DNA of 37,420 bases, taken from contig ONFC01000002.1 of NCBI GenBank assembly GCA_900317035.1, positions 1-37,420 of the forward strand, written 5' to 3'. Below the pieces are notes generated by a model, which saw only the letters and a list, made by a program, of their open reading frames with translations, ran no database searches and was not told where the DNA came from. Source of the DNA: an uncultured Eubacteriales bacterium (lineage in GTDB: Bacteria; Bacillota; Clostridia; Saccharofermentanales; Saccharofermentanaceae). Positions 3,855 to 31,064 of the stretch are shown piece by piece; the first letter of the stretch is position 1, and the number at the start of each line of letters is the position of its first letter. Position numbers and translations under genes: made by a program.

Positions 3855-5090
3855 ATGAGAAGAGTTGTAGTAACAGGAATGGGTGCGGTCACACCGCTGG
3901 GTAACACCGTCGAGGAATTCTGGTCGAATATCAAGGCCGGCAAAGTCGGTATCGGACCGATCACGAAGTTCGATGTAACGGACTACAGAGCCAAGGTCGC
4001 CGGTGAAGTAAAGGACTTCAAGGCAGATGAATACATGGACTTTAAGACGGCCAAGAGAATGGAGCTTTTCTCCCAGTATGCGGCAGCTTCCGCTCTGATG
4101 GCTGTTAAGGATTCCGGCATCGATATCGAGAAGGAAGATGCTTACCGCTGTGGCGTTATCGTCGGTTCCGGCGTCGGTTCCATGCAGGCGACCGAGCGTG
4201 AACACAAGAGACTTCTGGACTTCGGACCGAACAAGATCGGACCTCTCTATATTCCTCTCATGATCTCCAATATGGCAGCAGGTAACATCGCGATCGTTAC
4301 CGGCTTCAAGGGTAAGAATATCGATGTTGTTACCGCGTGTGCTTCCGGTACGAACTCCATCGGTGAGGCATACAGAAGCATCCAGCACAATGAGGCGGAT
4401 GTGATCCTTGCCGGCGGTACTGAGGCGGCGATCTGCCCGATGGGCGTTGCCGGTTTCTGTGCGCTAAAAGCACTTTCCTTCAACGAGGATCCGATGAAGG
4501 CGTCGATCCCGTTTGATAAGAATAGAGATGGCTTCGTTCTCGGTGAGGGCGCAGGCGTTCTCGTTCTCGAAGAGTATGAGCACGCGAAGGCCAGAGGTGC
4601 GAAGATCTATGCCGAGATGGTCGGCTACGGCGCTTCCTGCGATGCATATCACATCACATCTCCGGAGGAGTCCGGTATCGGTGCGGCGCATGCCATGATG
4701 GCAGCGATCGCAGATGCAGGCATCGAGCCTTCTGAGATCGACTATATCAACGCTCATGGCACATCCACCCACCACAATGACCTCTTCGAGACCCGTGCGA
4801 TCAAGACAGCGCTCGGAGATAGTGCGAAGGATGTAAAGATCAATTCCACCAAGTCCATGACCGGACACCTTCTCGGTGCAGCCGGTGCAATCGAGGCGAT
4901 CGTTCTTGCGAAGTCCGTTCAGGAAGGCTTTATCCACCAGACCATGGGCTCTTCTGAGACCGAGGATGAGATGGATCTGAACTACTGCTTTGGCAGATCC
5001 TATGAGCAGGATGTAAAATATGCGATGAGCAACTCGCTCGGTTTTGGCGGACACAATGCTTCCATCATCATGAAGCATTTCGAAGAGTAA
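3855..5090 (+). CDS. fabF: 3-oxoacyl-ACP synthase II (KAS II)
   Basis: FabF carries out the elongating condensations with malonyl-ACP. The 411-residue protein has the elongating-KAS triad Cys162 (TACASGTNS), His301 (NAHGTSTHHND) and His338 (MTGHLLGAAGA), and the C-terminal GFGGHNAS loop. AAGGAAGGTAAAG precedes the ATG. A copy of the AAAAGCAC word falls at 4466-4473 in an Ala-Leu-Lys-Ala-Leu stretch, where Lys is AAA although the gene mostly uses AAG. FabB is not seen. Confidence 0.97.
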   Translation: MRRVVVTGMGAVTPLGNTVEEFWSNIKAGKVGIGPITKFDVTDYRAKVAGEVKDFKADEYMDFKTAKRMELFSQYAAASALMAVKDSGIDIEKEDAYRCGVIVGSGVGSMQATEREHKRLLDFGPNKIGPLYIPLMISNMAAGNIAIVTGFKGKNIDVVTACASGTNSIGEAYRSIQHNEADVILAGGTEAAICPMGVAGFCALKALSFNEDPMKASIPFDKNRDGFVLGEGAGVLVLEEYEHAKARGAKIYAEMVGYGASCDAYHITSPEESGIGAAHAMMAAIADAGIEPSEIDYINAHGTSTHHNDLFETRAIKTALGDSAKDVKINSTKSMTGHLLGAAGAIEAIVLAKSVQEGFIHQTMGSSETEDEMDLNYCFGRSYEQDVKYAMSNSLGFGGHNASIIMKHFEE

Positions 5091-5105
5091 TACGAGGTTA
5101 ATACT

Positions 5106-5549
5106 ATGGCAAAAGCACTTACCACAAGAGAGATCATGGATATTCTTCCGCATCGTTCCCCGTTCTTACTGGTGGATGCGATCGAGGATTATAAAGAAGG
5201 AGAGTATGCCATCGGCAGAAAATGCATCACCTACGATGAGCCTTATTTCCAGGGCCATTTCCCGGAGATGCCGATCATGCCCGGTGTCCTTCAGGTGGAA
5301 GCGCTTGCACAGACCGGTGCGGTCGCGATCCTCTGCAAGGAAGAGTTCAAAGGCCGCATCGCAGTGTTTGCCGGCATCGATAAGTGTAAGTTCAAGCGTC
5401 CGGTAGTTCCGGGTGATGTCCTTACACTGAAGACAGAGATCACAGCTCTTCGTGGTCCGGTCGGTATGGGTCATGGCGTGGCATCTGTCGGTGATGAAGT
5501 GGCATGTGACTGCATCATCAAGTTTGCGATCCTGCCGAACAAAGAGTGA
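5106..5549 (+). CDS. fabZ: 3-hydroxyacyl-ACP dehydratase
   Basis: FabZ dehydrates 3-hydroxyacyl-ACP in a hotdog fold. The 147-residue protein shows LPHRSPFLLVD at 14-24, the catalytic His51 in QGHFPEMPIMPG and Glu65 in VEALAQ. It is the last gene of the operon, 15 bases after fabF and about 70 bases before a strong terminator. The AAAAGCAC word occupies codons 3-5 (5111-5118). The acetyl-CoA carboxylase genes that often flank fabZ in Firmicutes are not here. Confidence 0.96.
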   Translation: MAKALTTREIMDILPHRSPFLLVDAIEDYKEGEYAIGRKCITYDEPYFQGHFPEMPIMPGVLQVEALAQTGAVAILCKEEFKGRIAVFAGIDKCKFKRPVVPGDVLTLKTEITALRGPVGMGHGVASVGDEVACDCIIKFAILPNKE

Positions 5550-5618
5550 GAACTTAACCGGTTTCAATTATCAAATTATTTTACAAACTTCCTATATATA
5601 ATAATATGTATTATATAG

Positions 5619-5651
5619 AAAACGCGAAATCGAAAACGGTTTCGCGTTTTT
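5619..5651 (+). terminator. rho-independent terminator of the fab operon
   Basis: An 11-bp stem pairs 5619-5629 (ending ACGCGAAA) with 5640-5650 (TTTCGCGT...). The loop is 10 bases and the 3' arm runs into TTTTT. It ends the fab transcript. Confidence 0.88.
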
Positions 5652-5661
5652 ACGCCGTTAT

Positions 5662-5689
5662 TTGCACTTTTTGAGGATTCTGCTATCAT
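5662..5689 (+). promoter_or_regulatory. promoter of the 5721 gene
   Basis: TTGCAC at 5662-5667 and TATCAT at 5684-5689 are spaced by 16 bases. TGC just before the -10 box makes it an extended -10 promoter. The predicted start is near 5696, leaving a short leader with GAGGAGA before the ATG at 5721. Confidence 0.6.
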
Positions 5690-5720
5690 ATCGGTAGCAA
5701 AAAAGAAGAGGAGAGATGAC

Positions 5721-6380
5721 ATGCCGGATCCGAGTCTTGAAAAACCGAAACTGAATCTTAAAAAGATGGGATTCAAGAAATCTGTCATCCACCTGTGGAC
5801 ATACTATAAGTGGTGGGTGATCATTCCGGTGATCGTCATCGCCATCATCATCTCCTTTGTGAACTCTTATCTGAAAGCTACGAAAAAGGAATATCTGTCG
5901 ATCGCCTGCGTAAATGCCAGATACGAGTCCAATCATATCTTCGATGAATATGCCAAGTCGATCGGACAGACGATAAGTGTGGACTGCACCTATCATTTCC
6001 CGACGAATGAGGACTCATCCTATTTAAGCCAGGACATGACCAACAGTGTACAGAAGCTGGTGTCGCTGATGCAGAGTGAAGTGATCGATATTGTTGTTAC
6101 CAACTCCCGTGCGATCAAAGAATATGGGGAAGCGGGTGTCCGTGATCTTAGCGAAGTTCTTTCGAAAGAGCAGCTAGAGGATCTGGAAAACCGCGGAATA
6201 CTATTCTATCTGGAGCTCGAAGGCGGAAAGAGATTCCCGGCCGGGATCAATGTAACAGATATGGATTTCTTCTATCCGGCATATAACGGATCGGAAGAGA
6301 AGCACTACCTGATGCTCTCGAAGTTCTCTTCAAAAACAGAAGAAGAGAGACTCCTGATAGAGTATCTCTTCTTCTCCTGA
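5721..6380 (+). CDS. single-pass membrane-anchored protein of unknown function
   Basis: I do not recognise a named family. The 219-residue protein has a basic, probably cytoplasmic N-terminus (residues 1-33, many Lys) and one hydrophobic helix at about 34-52 (VIIPVIVIAIIISFV). The remaining ~165 residues would be extracellular, with no lipobox. The segment at about 105-125 (a serine-rich helix, then IDIVVTNSRAIKEYGEAG) vaguely resembles the way solute-binding-like domains describe a bound state, which is too weak to assign. It has its own promoter and converges on the DUF624 gene, 20 bases away. Confidence 0.75.
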   Translation: MPDPSLEKPKLNLKKMGFKKSVIHLWTYYKWWVIIPVIVIAIIISFVNSYLKATKKEYLSIACVNARYESNHIFDEYAKSIGQTISVDCTYHFPTNEDSSYLSQDMTNSVQKLVSLMQSEVIDIVVTNSRAIKEYGEAGVRDLSEVLSKEQLEDLENRGILFYLELEGGKRFPAGINVTDMDFFYPAYNGSEEKHYLMLSKFSSKTEEERLLIEYLFFS

Positions 6381-6400
6381 AATCTGATTAAGCTTTTCGA

Positions 6401-7306
6401 TCAATCCTCTTCGGACTCTTCTGAAGAGGATTCTTCATCTTCATCCTCTTCAGACTCTTCATCGTCATCATCAGAATCGTCTTCGTCATCCTCGTCAGAG
6501 TCTTCCGCCTCATCGGTGTCGTCTAACTCGTCCGGTTCATATTCCTCATCGTCTTCATCGTATTCTTCATCATCCTCATCGGAATCGGAGTCGCTGTCTT
6601 TATCTTTGTCATCGATATATTCGATCAGGTCGTCGTAGGACTCCTCATATGCGACGCCGCCTTTGGAGATCTTGATCTTCTTCAGGTCAAACGCCTTGTG
6701 AAGGAATACGGAACAGATATATACGCGCAGTGCAAGATTAAAGAAGATCTCGCATCCGACGACTCCGTAAAAAGTCTGGGGGAATGTGTTGACCAGGAGA
6801 GGAGTGAAGAGCCAGACCGCGATCAGCAGGATCGTGATCGGAATATGCTTGATGCTGAGAAGGATGGAGTTGATGATCGTATTCTTAAAAGAATTCTCGA
6901 AAACAGAGAGAAGTGCGAATCCGTACAGGAAGACCTGCACTACGATAAGGAGCATCGCCCATACAGGATACTGGAGCCAGTCAAGGCTGTTGCTGATCAG
7001 GTCGTCGCGGAAGTAGATGCCATATAGCTCAAATCCGAAAAGCCCTCCGAAAAGAAGTACGAGTATCCAAAGAAGCGTACCCTTTTTAAAACTGTTCTTG
7101 AATTCACGGAAATACTCGTGATAGACCATCGGGTCCTCGCCGGAGATGATCTTCAGACAGACACGGTAAAGAGCGCAGAGAGAAGGGCCGATGGTGATGA
7201 TCGGAATACATGTGAAGAAGAAGAGAAGATTAGCCCAGAATATATTAAAAAGGTTCGTCAGGAACCGCATTGCCGGGTTATTGGAATTGAAAGTAGATTC
7301 GTTCAT
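6401..7306 (-). CDS. DUF624/YesL-family membrane protein with acidic C-terminal tail
   Basis: The first ~215 residues fit the DUF624 (YesL) family: an N-terminal ..NPAMRFLTNLFNIFWANLLFFFTCIPIITIG-type start, the GPSLCALYRV segment and about five membrane helices. DUF624 genes are often found beside carbohydrate ABC transporters in Firmicutes, and here the gene is divergent from one. The biochemical role is unknown. The odd part is residues 232-301, about 70 residues made almost only of Asp, Glu and Ser, with no basic residue after the first four positions. The start at 7306 follows GAGGTG and an extended -10 promoter on the same strand. Confidence 0.85.
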   Translation of the reverse strand: MNESTFNSNNPAMRFLTNLFNIFWANLLFFFTCIPIITIGPSLCALYRVCLKIISGEDPMVYHEYFREFKNSFKKGTLLWILVLLFGGLFGFELYGIYFRDDLISNSLDWLQYPVWAMLLIVVQVFLYGFALLSVFENSFKNTIINSILLSIKHIPITILLIAVWLFTPLLVNTFPQTFYGVVGCEIFFNLALRVYICSVFLHKAFDLKKIKISKGGVAYEESYDDLIEYIDDKDKDSDSDSDEDDEEYDEDDEEYEPDELDDTDEAEDSDEDDEDDSDDDDEESEEDEDEESSSEESEED

Positions 7307-7323
7307 TATTCACACCTCGAAAG

Positions 7324-7339
7324 GGAGATTATATTCTCC
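7324..7339 (-). other. short hairpin in the DUF624 leader
   Basis: GGAGA and TCTCC pair around a 6-base AT loop in the predicted leader between the promoter at 7358-7366 and the start codon. It is too weak to be a terminator. I record it as a possible leader structure only. Confidence 0.25.
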
Positions 7340-7357
7340 GGGATTCAACACACAAAG

Positions 7358-7366
7358 ATTATACCA
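7358..7366 (-). promoter_or_regulatory. extended -10 promoter of the DUF624 gene
   Basis: On the minus strand the sequence reads TGGTATAAT, a perfect -10 box (plus-strand ATTATA at 7358-7363) preceded by the TG extension. No good -35 hexamer is present. Transcription would begin near 7351, about 45 bases before the start codon. Confidence 0.6.
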
Positions 7367-7389
7367 AGAAAGCAAAGAATTTGACATAA

Positions 7390-7401
7390 CGAAACGTTTC
7401 G
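7390..7401. promoter_or_regulatory. perfect palindromic operator in the divergent transporter region
   Basis: CGAAACGTTTCG is a perfect 12-bp palindrome with a central CG, the form typical of LacI-family (including CcpA-like) operators. It lies between the DUF624 and binding-protein genes, just after a TTGACA at 7381-7386. I could not find a well-placed -10 box for that hexamer; the best downstream candidate is TACAAT at 7437-7442. The regulator is not identified, and no LacI-family gene is in the window. Confidence 0.55.
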
Positions 7402-7550
7402 CCCTCGAAATAGCAATAAACGTCATCAAAACAGAGTACAATTCGCAAGAAATGTAAAGAAAGAAGTCGATGCAATGGTTATTATGTACCTGTAGTTACA
7501 AGAATCGGGCGAAATTTTCGTCGGAAATCTACAAATATCAGGAGGACGAT

Positions 7551-9062
7551 ATGAAAAAAGTAATTGCAAGTATTCTTTGCTTCACAATGTGCGCTGGAAT
7601 GTTTGCTGGCTGTAAGAAGGACGAGAAAAAAGACGAGTCCACAACCAGCGGCAACGGTGACACAACTGCTTCTGCAACAGAAGGCTCTTCTGCTGAGAGC
7701 TCTGAGTCTGCTGAAAGCAGCGAGACTGAGGCTTCCAGTGAGGAAACCACAACAGAAGTTACCACAGCTATTGAGAGCTACGGTACTGGTTCCATCGAGA
7801 TCAACATGTTCGCGATGAGCCCTGAGGTTCCTGGCATGGTTAAGCGTTTCATGGCTGATAACCCGGACATGGCTTCCAAGTACAAGGTAACAGCTATGGT
7901 ATCTGCTAACACAAACGGCGCTTACGTTACAAAGCTGAACGCTGCTCTGACAGCTGGCGGTGACGGTGCTCCGGACATCTACGTAGCAGAGGCTGACTAC
8001 ATTCTGCCTTATACACAGGGTGACCTTTCTTCTCTCGCAGCTCCGTACGCTGACTTCATCGACAACGTTGATGGTAAGCTGAAGGATGCTCAGATCGCTC
8101 AGTACACAATCGATCTTGGTACTAACACAGACGGTAAGCTGGTTGCTCTTTGCTATCAGTGCACTGGTGGTGCTATGATCTACTCTGCTTCCATCGCTAA
8201 GGAAGTTTTCGGTTCTGATGATCCGGCAGAGGTTAAGAAGGCTGTTGGCGGCGGATCCGGTTCTTGGGATACATTCAAGAAGGCTGCTGCTCAGCTGAAG
8301 GAAAAGGGCTACGCTGCAGTAGCTGACTTCGGTGATCTTTGGAACGTAGCTGAGAAGGCTGCTACAACACCGTGGGTTGTTGACAATAAGGTTAACATCG
8401 ACCCGCAGAGAGAAGCTTACATGGATCTCATCAAGGAAGCTTACGATAACAACTGGACCAACGAGACAGGTAACTGGAACGACGCTTGGTACGCTGCTAT
8501 GAACGGCGAGTCCAAGGATCCTAAGACAAACGAAACACGTAAGGTATTCGCTTTCTTCGGACCTGCATGGCTCATCAACTACACAATGGGTGACCACTCT
8601 GCAAACACAAAGGGCGACTGGCGTGTATGTGAGTCTCCGGTAGGCTTCTGGTGGGGCGGTTCTTGGCTCTGCGTTAACAAGAAGGGCATCGAGAACGCTG
8701 ATAAGAAGGAATTCCTTTCTAAGTTCGTTGAGTGGGTAACACTTGATTCTTCTGACACTGGTCTCCAGTATCTGTGGGCATCCGGTGCTATGAACGAGAA
8801 CGGCACAAAGGATACAGTTGCTTCCTCTACAGTACTTGCTAAGGTTAAGGGTGACATGGCTCTCCTCGGCGGTCAGGATGCATTCCCGATCTTCATCGAA
8901 GCTACAAAGTTCGCTTCCTCTAAGTGTAAGTCTCTCCTGGATGATCAGCTCAATGGTGTATTCACAGACAACGCTGCTGACTATGCTCGTGGCAAGATCA
9001 CTAAGGAAGAAGCTATCAACAACTTCAAGGATGCTTGCGCTGAGAAGGGTATCGAGATCTAA
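7551..9062 (+). CDS. carbohydrate ABC transporter substrate-binding lipoprotein
   Basis: Extracytoplasmic binding protein of a family 1 (MalE-like) sugar transporter, 503 residues from ATG 7551. I chose this start because AGGAGGA sits just upstream and a clean lipoprotein signal follows: Lys-Lys, a hydrophobic core and the lipobox FAG-Cys21. Residues ~22-75 form a Ser/Thr/Glu-rich linker that would hold the domain off the membrane. Typical features follow, such as GDGAPDIYVAEADY and GGGSGSWDTFKKAA. Codon use is strongly biased (many GCT, AAG, AAC), as in highly expressed genes. It is separated from the permeases by a hairpin that probably raises its expression relative to them. Confidence 0.93.
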   Translation: MKKVIASILCFTMCAGMFAGCKKDEKKDESTTSGNGDTTASATEGSSAESSESAESSETEASSEETTTEVTTAIESYGTGSIEINMFAMSPEVPGMVKRFMADNPDMASKYKVTAMVSANTNGAYVTKLNAALTAGGDGAPDIYVAEADYILPYTQGDLSSLAAPYADFIDNVDGKLKDAQIAQYTIDLGTNTDGKLVALCYQCTGGAMIYSASIAKEVFGSDDPAEVKKAVGGGSGSWDTFKKAAAQLKEKGYAAVADFGDLWNVAEKAATTPWVVDNKVNIDPQREAYMDLIKEAYDNNWTNETGNWNDAWYAAMNGESKDPKTNETRKVFAFFGPAWLINYTMGDHSANTKGDWRVCESPVGFWWGGSWLCVNKKGIENADKKEFLSKFVEWVTLDSSDTGLQYLWASGAMNENGTKDTVASSTVLAKVKGDMALLGGQDAFPIFIEATKFASSKCKSLLDDQLNGVFTDNAADYARGKITKEEAINNFKDACAEKGIEI

Positions 9063-28290: not shown

Positions 28291-28740
28291 ATGAATCTGG
28301 TATTTGAAACGGCGAAGAAGGATGATCTTCATGAGATCCATGAGATCGAGATCGCATCATTCCCGGACCCGTGGAGCGTGGACTCGCTGTGGGCATTTGC
28401 CTCTAATGAACAGGTGAGAACGCTCGTGTGCGCAAGAGAAAAAGAGAGCAGGGAACTGGTCGGCTACTATGCGCTGCAGTACGTGCTGGATGAGGCAGAG
28501 ATCGCGATCATCGCAGTAAAGCGGAAGTTCAGAAGACAGGGACTGGGAACGAAGCTTCTTCAGGAGATAAGTGCTTTTGCCAAGGAGCGGGGGATCAGCA
28601 AGATCCATCTTGAAGTAAGATCCGAAAACGAGGCGGCGGTCCACCTGTACCGGAGCTTCGGATTCGAGGAAGTCGGGCGCCGGAAAAATTACTACGAGGC
28701 GCCGAAAGATGACGCGATCCTGTTCACTCTTTCTATTTGA
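28291..28740 (+). CDS. rimI: ribosomal protein S18-alanine N-acetyltransferase RimI
   Basis: GNAT acetyltransferase of 149 residues with the acetyl-CoA loop RRQGLGTKLL at 81-90, LEVRSENEAAVHLY near 110-123 and the terminal GRRKNYYEAPKDDA typical of RimI. It follows tsaB, the common tsaE-tsaB-rimI order of Firmicutes. The target in this organism is inferred from family membership. A GTGCTTTT copy is at 28571-28578. Confidence 0.92.
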   Translation: MNLVFETAKKDDLHEIHEIEIASFPDPWSVDSLWAFASNEQVRTLVCAREKESRELVGYYALQYVLDEAEIAIIAVKRKFRRQGLGTKLLQEISAFAKERGISKIHLEVRSENEAAVHLYRSFGFEEVGRRKNYYEAPKDDAILFTLSI

Positions 28741-28810: not shown

Positions 28811-28849
28811 TGTCAAAAGATTGACATTAAACTTAAGTGTTCATATACT
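28811..28849 (+). promoter_or_regulatory. promoter with inverted repeat, upstream of the Crh-like gene
   Basis: TTGACA at 28821-28826, 17-base spacer and TATACT at 28844-28849: a near-consensus promoter. The -35 hexamer is the right arm of a perfect inverted repeat, TGTCAA-AAGA-TTGACA (28811-28826), a likely repressor or activator site. Two more TTGACA hexamers occur at 28737-28742 and 28745-28750, without matching -10 boxes. Confidence 0.75.
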
Positions 28850-28903: not shown

Positions 28904-28935
28904 GACAAATATATGAACCTCGAGGAGGAAGAAAC

Positions 28936-29199
28936 ATGGTTTCTCAGACAGTTACTTTTCAGTGCGATGAAGCGCTCCAGATGAAGGCGGTTGCGATCCT
29001 TATCCAGAAAGCTTCTGCATTTAAGAGCAGCATCTATCTCACCAGATCCGGCAGACGCGCGAATGCGAAGAGCCTTCTCGGTGTTATGTCTCTGGGTATC
29101 GAGAATGACGCGCAGATCGAAGTTACTGCGGACGGCATCGATCAGGATGAAGCCATCGAAGCATTGGTCGGATATCTCAAAGATCCGAAGATCCAATGA
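28936..29199 (+). CDS. Crh-like HPr paralogue (Gln15, Ser46)
   Basis: An 87-residue HPr-fold protein from ATG 28936 (GAGGAGG upstream). The region that in HPr reads GLHARPA reads ALQMKAV: residue 15 is Gln, not the phosphorylatable His, and Arg17 is Lys. The regulatory site is kept: Ser46 in NAKSLLGVMSL. This is the Crh pattern of Bacillus, where the protein cannot carry phosphate in the PTS but can be phosphorylated on Ser46 by HPr kinase and act with CcpA. Whether it is a true Crh orthologue or an independent derivative is open; hprK is not in the window. It overlaps uvrC by ATGA and has its own promoter. Confidence 0.85.
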   Translation: MVSQTVTFQCDEALQMKAVAILIQKASAFKSSIYLTRSGRRANAKSLLGVMSLGIENDAQIEVTADGIDQDEAIEALVGYLKDPKIQ

Positions 29200-31064
29200 G
29201 TGGTGATCCTGCTTCCAAATTCGACGCAAGATTAGATATAGTACCTACGGATCCGGGAGTGTACCTGATGAAGGACGCCTCGGATTCTGTCATTTATGTG
29301 GGAAAAGCGAAGAATCTTAGAAACCGTCTCCGCTCCTACTTCGGCAAGAACCCGCAGGGAAATGCGAAAGTTCTTGCGATGATCTCCCATGTGGCCGACT
29401 TCGAATATGTGGTCGTCGGCTCCGAACTCGAAGCACTCCTTCTCGAGTGTAATCTCATTAAGCGGTATCAGCCCCACTACAATATCCTCCTTCGCGATGA
29501 CAAGGGATTTCCCTATGTCTGCATTACGATGCAGGAGGAATATCCGCGCATCATGAAGGTCTTCCGCCCCGATAAGAATATGACCGGCGCGAAGTATTAC
29601 GGACCTTTCCTCGGAGGAGACCTTTACCGTGCGCTCCAGGCGCTCCGCGACATCTTCCCGACGAAGACCTGCCGGAAAGTCCTTCCACGGGATATCGGGA
29701 AAGAGCGCGCCTGCCTCAATTACCATATCGGACGATGTGTCGGTCCCTGCCGCGGCGATGTTTCCGCGGAAGAATACCGGAAGGTCATGGAAAATATGTG
29801 CCGTTTCTTCGAGGGAAAATATGACGGCATCCTCCGTGATCTGGAAGCGCAGATGCAGGAGGCATCGGAGAATCTCGATTTCGAGAAAGCGGCGGTCTAT
29901 CGCGACCGGTTAAATGCGCTTCGTGCCGTCATGGCGAATCAGAATGTATCTTTCCCGCGCGAGTCGGATCGTGACGCCGTGGGCTTTTTCCGCGATGCGG
30001 GCGAAATGTGTTTTAGAAAACTGGAACTTCGTGAAGGCCGTATCATCGGTTCTTCCACCTATTTTCTGAAGGATGAGGGAGAGACGGAAGACAGTCTCCT
30101 CGAAGCCTTCCTGATGCAGTATTACCCGACAGCGGCGGAGATCCCGAAAGAGATCCTCGTGTCGATCGATCTCGAGGATCACGACACCGTCGAGCAGGCG
30201 ATCTGCGACATGGCCGGACATAAGGTCTCTGTCCATGTTCCGCAGAGAGGCGATGGCGCGCGGCTCCTGGAGATGGCAAATGCAAATGCGAAAGAAGCGC
30301 TGCGCCGGAGGATCCTCCGGGTAGGCACCTCTCAGCAGAGCGTCGAGACGGCACTGGGACTTCTCCGCGATAAGCTCGCGCTTCGGGATATTCCGCAGCG
30401 AATCGAATCCTACGATATCAGTAACCTCGGAAACGACGACCGCTGCGGCGGTATGGTGGTCTTTACGGACGGCCGCCCGGACAAGCAGGCATACCGTCTC
30501 TTCAAGATCAAGACGGTCGAAGGGCAGGATGACTACGCGTCGATGAGAGAGGTTCTGCTTCGACGGTTCTCGCATACAGGGGATGAGAAGTTCGCCAAGA
30601 TGCCGGACCTGATCCTCGCGGACGGCGGCCTCGGACAGGTGCACGCGATCTACAGTGTTCTCGAGGAACTCGGCCTTCAGGATAAGGTACAGCTGGCCGG
30701 TATGGTCAAGGACCGCCGCCATAGAACGCACGGCCTCGTGAAACTTGACGGGGAGACGATCGATCTGGCAGAGGACGCCAGGGAAGACGAAGACATGATG
30801 GTGCTTTTCCGTCTGATCACGGGAATCCAGAATGAGGTGCACCGCTTCGCGATCACCTATCAGCGAAAGCTCAGCAAGAAGAGAAACCTCACCTATTCGC
30901 TCGAGACGATCCCGGGAATAGGTACCGCCAAGCGAAAAGCACTGATGAAGCACTTCGGTTCGATCAAGGCGATCTCCAAGGCTTCAAAAGAACAGCTCAT
31001 GGAGGCAGAACGAATATCGGAAAAGGATGCGGACGCGATCATCGCGCACTTCCAGCAGGAGTGA
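29196..31064 (+). CDS. uvrC: excinuclease ABC subunit C
   Basis: UvrC makes both incisions in nucleotide excision repair. The 622-residue protein has the GIY-YIG domain (PGVYLMKDASDSVIYVGKAKNLRNR at about 20-44), the Cys cluster CLNYHIGRCVGPC, a UVR helix pair at about 208-245, the RNase H-like nuclease with SYDISN, VFTDGRPDK, LILADGG and HRTHG, and C-terminal HhH motifs (IPGIGTAKRKALMKHFGS). All expected catalytic acids are visible. Its start overlaps the Crh-like gene's stop (ATGA). Two signal-word copies lie in the 3' end and a third just after the stop. Confidence 0.97.
   Translation: MSGDPASKFDARLDIVPTDPGVYLMKDASDSVIYVGKAKNLRNRLRSYFGKNPQGNAKVLAMISHVADFEYVVVGSELEALLLECNLIKRYQPHYNILLRDDKGFPYVCITMQEEYPRIMKVFRPDKNMTGAKYYGPFLGGDLYRALQALRDIFPTKTCRKVLPRDIGKERACLNYHIGRCVGPCRGDVSAEEYRKVMENMCRFFEGKYDGILRDLEAQMQEASENLDFEKAAVYRDRLNALRAVMANQNVSFPRESDRDAVGFFRDAGEMCFRKLELREGRIIGSSTYFLKDEGETEDSLLEAFLMQYYPTAAEIPKEILVSIDLEDHDTVEQAICDMAGHKVSVHVPQRGDGARLLEMANANAKEALRRRILRVGTSQQSVETALGLLRDKLALRDIPQRIESYDISNLGNDDRCGGMVVFTDGRPDKQAYRLFKIKTVEGQDDYASMREVLLRRFSHTGDEKFAKMPDLILADGGLGQVHAIYSVLEELGLQDKVQLAGMVKDRRHRTHGLVKLDGETIDLAEDAREDEDMMVLFRLITGIQNEVHRFAITYQRKLSKKRNLTYSLETIPGIGTAKRKALMKHFGSIKAISKASKEQLMEAERISEKDADAIIAHFQQE

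Follow-up and report, generated by a model that had tools for sequence, protein, structure and literature searches.

Background

HPr normally links sugar transport, through His15, to carbon regulation, through Ser46, and the HPr kinase/phosphorylase (HprK/P) of Firmicutes responds to FBP and ATP versus Pi. Some firmicutes make the HPr-like protein Crh (PMC3526391). Although the preliminary description of the locus treated here regarded Crh as best known from Bacillus, Crh-like HPrs are not confined to that genus: Ccel_0806 of Ruminiclostridium cellulolyticum has been reported as Crh-like, in an organism reported to have neither an HPr orthologue nor a cognate EII (PMC3656788), and PDB entry 7ff5, which gives R. 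cellulolyticum as its organism, is by our inference the same protein. Our literature search, which covered few subscription papers, found nothing on a series of uvrC-linked HPrs, on HPr in the Saccharofermentanaceae, or on HprK signalling without LacI-type regulators.

Here we examine a Gln15/Ser46 HPr gene from this family, and we consider it probable that its product is a regulation-only HPr, phosphorylated by HprK at Ser46, descended from a uvrC-linked HPr of the Clostridia and transcribed with uvrC. This reading draws on the sequence, fold, gene context and gene co-occurrence observed below, from which phosphorylation, partner and physiological role are predicted.

The HPr gene and its junction with uvrC

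The window, that is, the whole 37,420-nucleotide stretch analysed, is one entire contig (C149). Its relevant features are as follows.

28291..28740, + strand: GNAT acetyltransferase gene (RimI-like; Pfam), the upstream neighbour, ending before the promoter
28821..28849, + strand: sigma-70 type promoter of the HPr–uvrC pair, TTGACA-17-TATACT (conserved hexamers)
28924..28929, + strand: ribosome-binding site GGAGGA, invariant in the same 28 upstream regions that were aligned for the promoter
28936..29199, + strand: Crh-like HPr, 87 aa (translation, Pfam, alignment, AlphaFold model)
28978-28980, + strand: Gln15 codon CAG (alignment)
28984-28986, + strand: Lys17 codon (alignment)
29071-29073, + strand: Ser46 codon AGC (alignment)
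29196..31064, + strand: uvrC (Pfam UvrC_RNaseH_dom, 161.9 bits; GIY-YIG, UVR, HHH)

The 87-aa translation of 28936-29199, which starts MVSQTVTFQCDEALQMKAVAILIQKASAFKSSIYLTRSGRRANAKSLLGVMSLGIEND, matches the Pfam PTS-HPr family (PF00381) at 77.9 bits (E 6e-22; cut-off 23), and its AlphaFold model has the HPr fold (pLDDT 93.8) with a TM of 0.9 to HPr structures. Its alignment to both B. subtilis Crh and PDB 7ff5 is gapless and begins at residue 1, which makes Gln15, Lys17 and Ser46 exact, as the preliminary description had proposed; its analogy with Crh, in which His15 is lost and Ser46 retained, likewise holds in the alignment to the B. subtilis protein and in the family survey below. Judged by function, the protein has what distinguishes Crh (His15 absent, Ser46 present), and it differs from a PTS phosphocarrier HPr in having Gln15/Lys17/Ala18 in place of HARPA with His15, in a genome without enzyme I. 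The best-scoring curated HPr model, NF010354, which we take to be the Crh model, gives 78.7 bits and does not reach its curated score of 123.

The stop codon of the HPr gene and the start of uvrC share the ATGA at 29196-29199, a 4-nt overlap (the preliminary description had noted that the genes overlap), by which uvrC is predicted to be translationally coupled to the HPr gene. By Pfam, tsaE and a TsaD-domain (tsaB-like) gene lie 5′ of the acetyltransferase gene, while uvrC, a metallophosphoesterase gene, yicC, remA, gmk and an rpoZ-like gene follow 3′ of the HPr gene. Both promoter hexamers are near consensus and, in an alignment of 28 upstream regions covering genera g1-g4, invariant. We found no cre site near the promoter, the sole cre-consensus match in the window lying 9 kb off and at chance level. 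Of the ‘regulated-looking’ promoter described previously, then, the invariant hexamers uphold that it is the pair's own and real, while their near-consensus form and the want of a nearby cre give regulation no support; it looks like an ordinary strong sigma-70, housekeeping-type promoter, from which HPr would be transcribed together with uvrC.

HPr, HprK and PTS genes in the source genome

The source genome (2.57 Mb) is 94% complete and in 234 contigs, a state in which the absence of single genes is weak evidence. A PF00381 search of it returned two matches and no canonical HPr: the 28936-29199 gene, which is the only full-length HPr and is thus not the ‘paralogue’ it had been called, and a gene on C178 that is divergent and not as long (26 bits; L002 1453-1731, minus strand). 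The latter retains Ser in VDAKSIMG (VDAKSIMGIFSLEL), has no His at the phosphorylation site, and is possibly a second HprK substrate; a weak PF00381 match like it is listed in most g1 genomes.

HprK, which the preliminary description had suggested looking for, is present (243 bits; C54:335-841) with the P-loop GESGVGKSE and an EIRGIGILDV stretch, and it sits in an hprK-murB-rapZ-whiA run (the last three named by reading the sequence) that has no HPr or crh gene. Phosphorylation of the 28936-29199 HPr by this kinase is likely, and we suggest that HprK would phosphorylate and dephosphorylate it at Ser46 according to energy and glycolytic state. Enzyme I was not found, a TIGR01417 search of the source genome giving just a 39.5-bit fragment, and a profile search of the same genome found no PEP-utilizer C domain. 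Because His15 is Gln and there is no enzyme I, the protein cannot be a PTS phosphocarrier. Loss of PPDK from the source genome was considered and rejected: relatives carry PPDK about 9 kb past the HPr–uvrC pair (e.g. G093:C34), a position that the window's contig stops just short of reaching; its absence is thus probably an assembly gap.

Conservation across the Saccharofermentanaceae

The host family belongs to the Clostridia and includes Saccharofermentans. Close relatives of the source organism bear the names Saccharofermentans, Mageeibacillus and Candidatus Scatonaster and come mostly from rumen, gut and digesters. Among 115 family genomes, 109 have an HPr-fold match. Every one of the uvrC-linked HPrs that we read, from 63 genomes, has Gln15 and Ser46 and lies directly upstream of uvrC; residue 17 is Lys except in two, which have Asn17, and Ser46 with its helix (NAKSLLGVMSLG) is conserved in all 63. 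Given such conservation, the arrangement of a Gln15/Ser46 HPr gene before uvrC is not a chance observation. HprK scores over its cut-off in 112/115 genomes and is matched in all 62 good ones.

Enzyme I exceeds its cut-off in just 16/115 genomes, and exactly these 16 carry a canonical HARPAG HPr whose gene, ptsH, adjoins ptsI. The 18 canonical-type HPrs read in them (loci L004-L019, L077 and L082) all have Lys46 or Arg46 and none has Ser46, which leaves the Gln15 protein to carry Ser46 signalling; two of the 16 genomes (G103 and G108) belong to the window's own genus and contain both HPr types. Phosphocarrier and regulatory sites are therefore on separate proteins where a PTS exists, and elsewhere the regulatory one alone remains. 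Two sites that HPr normally combines are here fully separated, whether by loss of the PTS or across two proteins in one genome.

A former ptsH, now functionless and in decay, would account for the loss of the catalytic His and of the ARPA motif in organisms lacking a PTS. We find this hardly credible, as aligned family members share 47-81% identity, their helix-2 residues and the promoter are invariant, and the kinase gene is intact.

Candidate readers of Ser46 phosphorylation

Under the regulation-only reading, phosphorylated Ser46 (Ser46-P) might be read by a CcpA-like LacI regulator in the window's genus and by some other partner in relatives without LacI. A CcpA orthologue, for which the preliminary description had also advised a search, did not appear: no match passed the curated ccpA cut-off in any of the 115 family genomes, the source genome included. 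Genera g1-g4 have a LacI regulator whose score against the ccpA model, about 171-197 bits, is below cut-off and whose best solved (PDB) match is CcpA at 170 bits; in the source genome this gene is truncated by the end of a contig, which leaves its N-terminal part. The arginine of CcpA that contacts Ser46-P is R304 (PMC4591507), R303 in chain numbering, and it is kept in the two LacI copies examined for it (G100, G109). Close to this arginine, positions in the examined copy differ: Tyr295 and Asp296 are replaced by Arg and Lys, and Lys307 by Glu, all three of the replaced residues being, as we understand it, contacts of CcpA with Ser46-P HPr. From its sequence, the CcpA-like regulator of the window's genus is a candidate effector.

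It is conceivable, then, that the protein works as Crh does in Bacillus, its Ser46-P form binding a CcpA-type LacI repressor and directing it to cre sites, and the resemblance of the g1-g4 regulator to CcpA, its retained arginine and the partial gene in the source genome would fit. We nevertheless regard this as unlikely, given the absence of any match over the ccpA cut-off, the altered positions around the contact arginine and the chance-level cre match in the window. Moreover, a LacI-type HTH gene is absent from 57/115 genomes (32/62 good ones) in which HprK and HPr persist. In 21 genomes the Gln15/Ser46 gene was read and there is neither an enzyme I over cut-off nor a LacI HTH, among them G013 (99% complete, 7 contigs), G065 (99%, 8 contigs), and G066 and G008 (both 100%). 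Many Saccharofermentans-type relatives thus lack a LacI regulator, and another partner would be needed there.

A broader proposition, to which we give about even chances, is that the HprK–HPr(Ser46) module outlives the PTS and that in roughly half of the genomes it has also outlived all LacI-type regulators, CcpA among them, with PTS HPrs bearing Lys46 or Arg46 standing outside HprK control; as the module persists without LacI-type regulators, Ser46-P would then be read by a new effector. Genomes with HprK and its substrate and no LacI-type gene offer a view of HprK signalling without CcpA that cannot be isolated in model Firmicutes. As a separate observation, proteins of 580-670 aa with a LacI-type ligand-binding region and no LacI HTH (L036 1345-3102, L038 1255-3084) abound in the family, including in genomes without LacI repressors, and one of them ends in a GGDEF-like region.

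Alternatively, the unphosphorylated protein might exert direct control over an enzyme, in the way that Crh of B. subtilis inhibits methylglyoxal synthase, the CcpA-independent Crh target known in Bacillus (PMC9631020). A single-copy MGS-domain protein does occur in 108/115 family genomes, including all 62 good ones, but it scores 40-75 bits against a cut-off of 147, and two aligned copies (L339 761-1252, from G000:C158, and L341 1202-1624) lack counterparts of the E. coli enzyme's H19, D71 and H98. With so low a score and these catalytic residues missing from both copies, the family protein is probably not a methylglyoxal synthase, which makes that enzyme a weak candidate target; direct enzyme control is, in our estimation, improbable.

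Descent within the Clostridia

The family alignment, used as a query against 391 genomes of Clostridia, matched 305 of them. About 119 of the loci were read: some 81 have His15/Arg17, 8 have His15/Lys17 and 30 lack His15, residue 15 in uvrC-linked HPrs being H, Q, D, N, E, S, Y, R or G. Ser46 is present in all of the approximately 119, a figure to be read in light of a search profile that contains the Ser46 helix and is biased toward it. Most of the loci adjoin uvrC, and in several families HPr lies away from uvrC within the stretch examined. Near relatives outside the Saccharofermentanaceae still have His15, with Lys17. Enzyme I accompanies 19/42 HPrs of the His15-Arg17 class, 0/8 of the His15-Lys17 class and 16/30 of those without His15; a strict link between loss of His15 and loss of enzyme I across the Clostridia was rejected on the comparison of 16/30 with 19/42.

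Two loci deserve separate mention. In L333 (G452:C1:3222000-3231000), positions 4721-8640 hold an HPr gene with Glu15, an EI-like gene (385 bits, THAS histidine stretch kept) and then uvrC, an order found in other f54 genomes too. At L282 (G330:C1:1486200-1491800), in a genome that is complete, belongs to the same order and encodes enzyme I, the uvrC-linked HPr has Ser15.

On a tree built without columns 15, 17 and 46, His15 presence requires at least 8 changes, and the Gln15 group of the family is monophyletic (100/100) and nested among the uvrC-linked HPrs, with few columns and a bootstrap that had not settled. A topology that unites the Gln15 sequences with Crh of B. subtilis is rejected (AU p=0.022; 84 columns, one Bacillus Crh sampled). 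The uvrC-linked HPr is common across the Clostridia and has lost His15 several times; these losses provide, beyond Bacillus, a natural series in which Crh-like proteins were derived. The tree, the AU test and a gene neighbourhood unlike that of Bacillus crh bear out the independent derivation that the preliminary description had suspected: the 28936-29199 HPr appears to derive from a uvrC-linked HPr of the Clostridia and not from Bacillus Crh, a common clade with which is disfavoured. The phylogeny, which had been proposed as a check, placed it in no non-regulatory cluster; it groups with uvrC-linked HPrs, all sampled ones having Ser46.

That HPr and uvrC stay together in many families of the Clostridia, even with an EI-like gene separating the two in one lineage, might suggest that HPr takes part in nucleotide excision repair or reports metabolic state to it. 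To our knowledge, UvrC needs no HPr partner elsewhere, and we know of no mechanism for HPr in repair; the pair lies amid unrelated housekeeping genes, and HPr is away from uvrC in the several families noted above. We think a functional repair link very unlikely, and the adjacency is best read as inherited gene order.

Comparison with known systems

Relative to the HPr encoded by ptsH, the 28936-29199 protein shares the fold and the Ser46 region and lacks His15, a ptsI neighbour and enzyme I. With B. subtilis Crh it has in common the HPr fold, Gln15, Ser46 and a Ser46-only strategy, but Crh keeps Arg17-Pro18 where this protein has Lys17-Ala18, and Crh serves as backup to an HPr that has both sites, whereas the source genome has no such HPr. 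The gene contexts also differ: B. subtilis crh follows whiA, in what we take to be the Bacillus order rapZ-yvcK-whiA-crh, while here the hprK-murB-rapZ-whiA run is without an HPr gene, which lies beside uvrC instead.

The closest described relative is the Crh-like HPr of R. cellulolyticum (Ccel_0806; PDB 7ff5), which is likewise uvrC-linked, lacks His15, has Lys17, Ser46 and the RRANAKSLLG helix, and is 45-46% identical. It has Asp15 where this protein has Gln15, and since His15 persists in organisms closely related to the window's family, the residue-15 changes in the two lineages look separate. The 28936-29199 HPr is a real, conserved protein that belongs to the same line as Ccel_0806 and was derived independently of Bacillus Crh.
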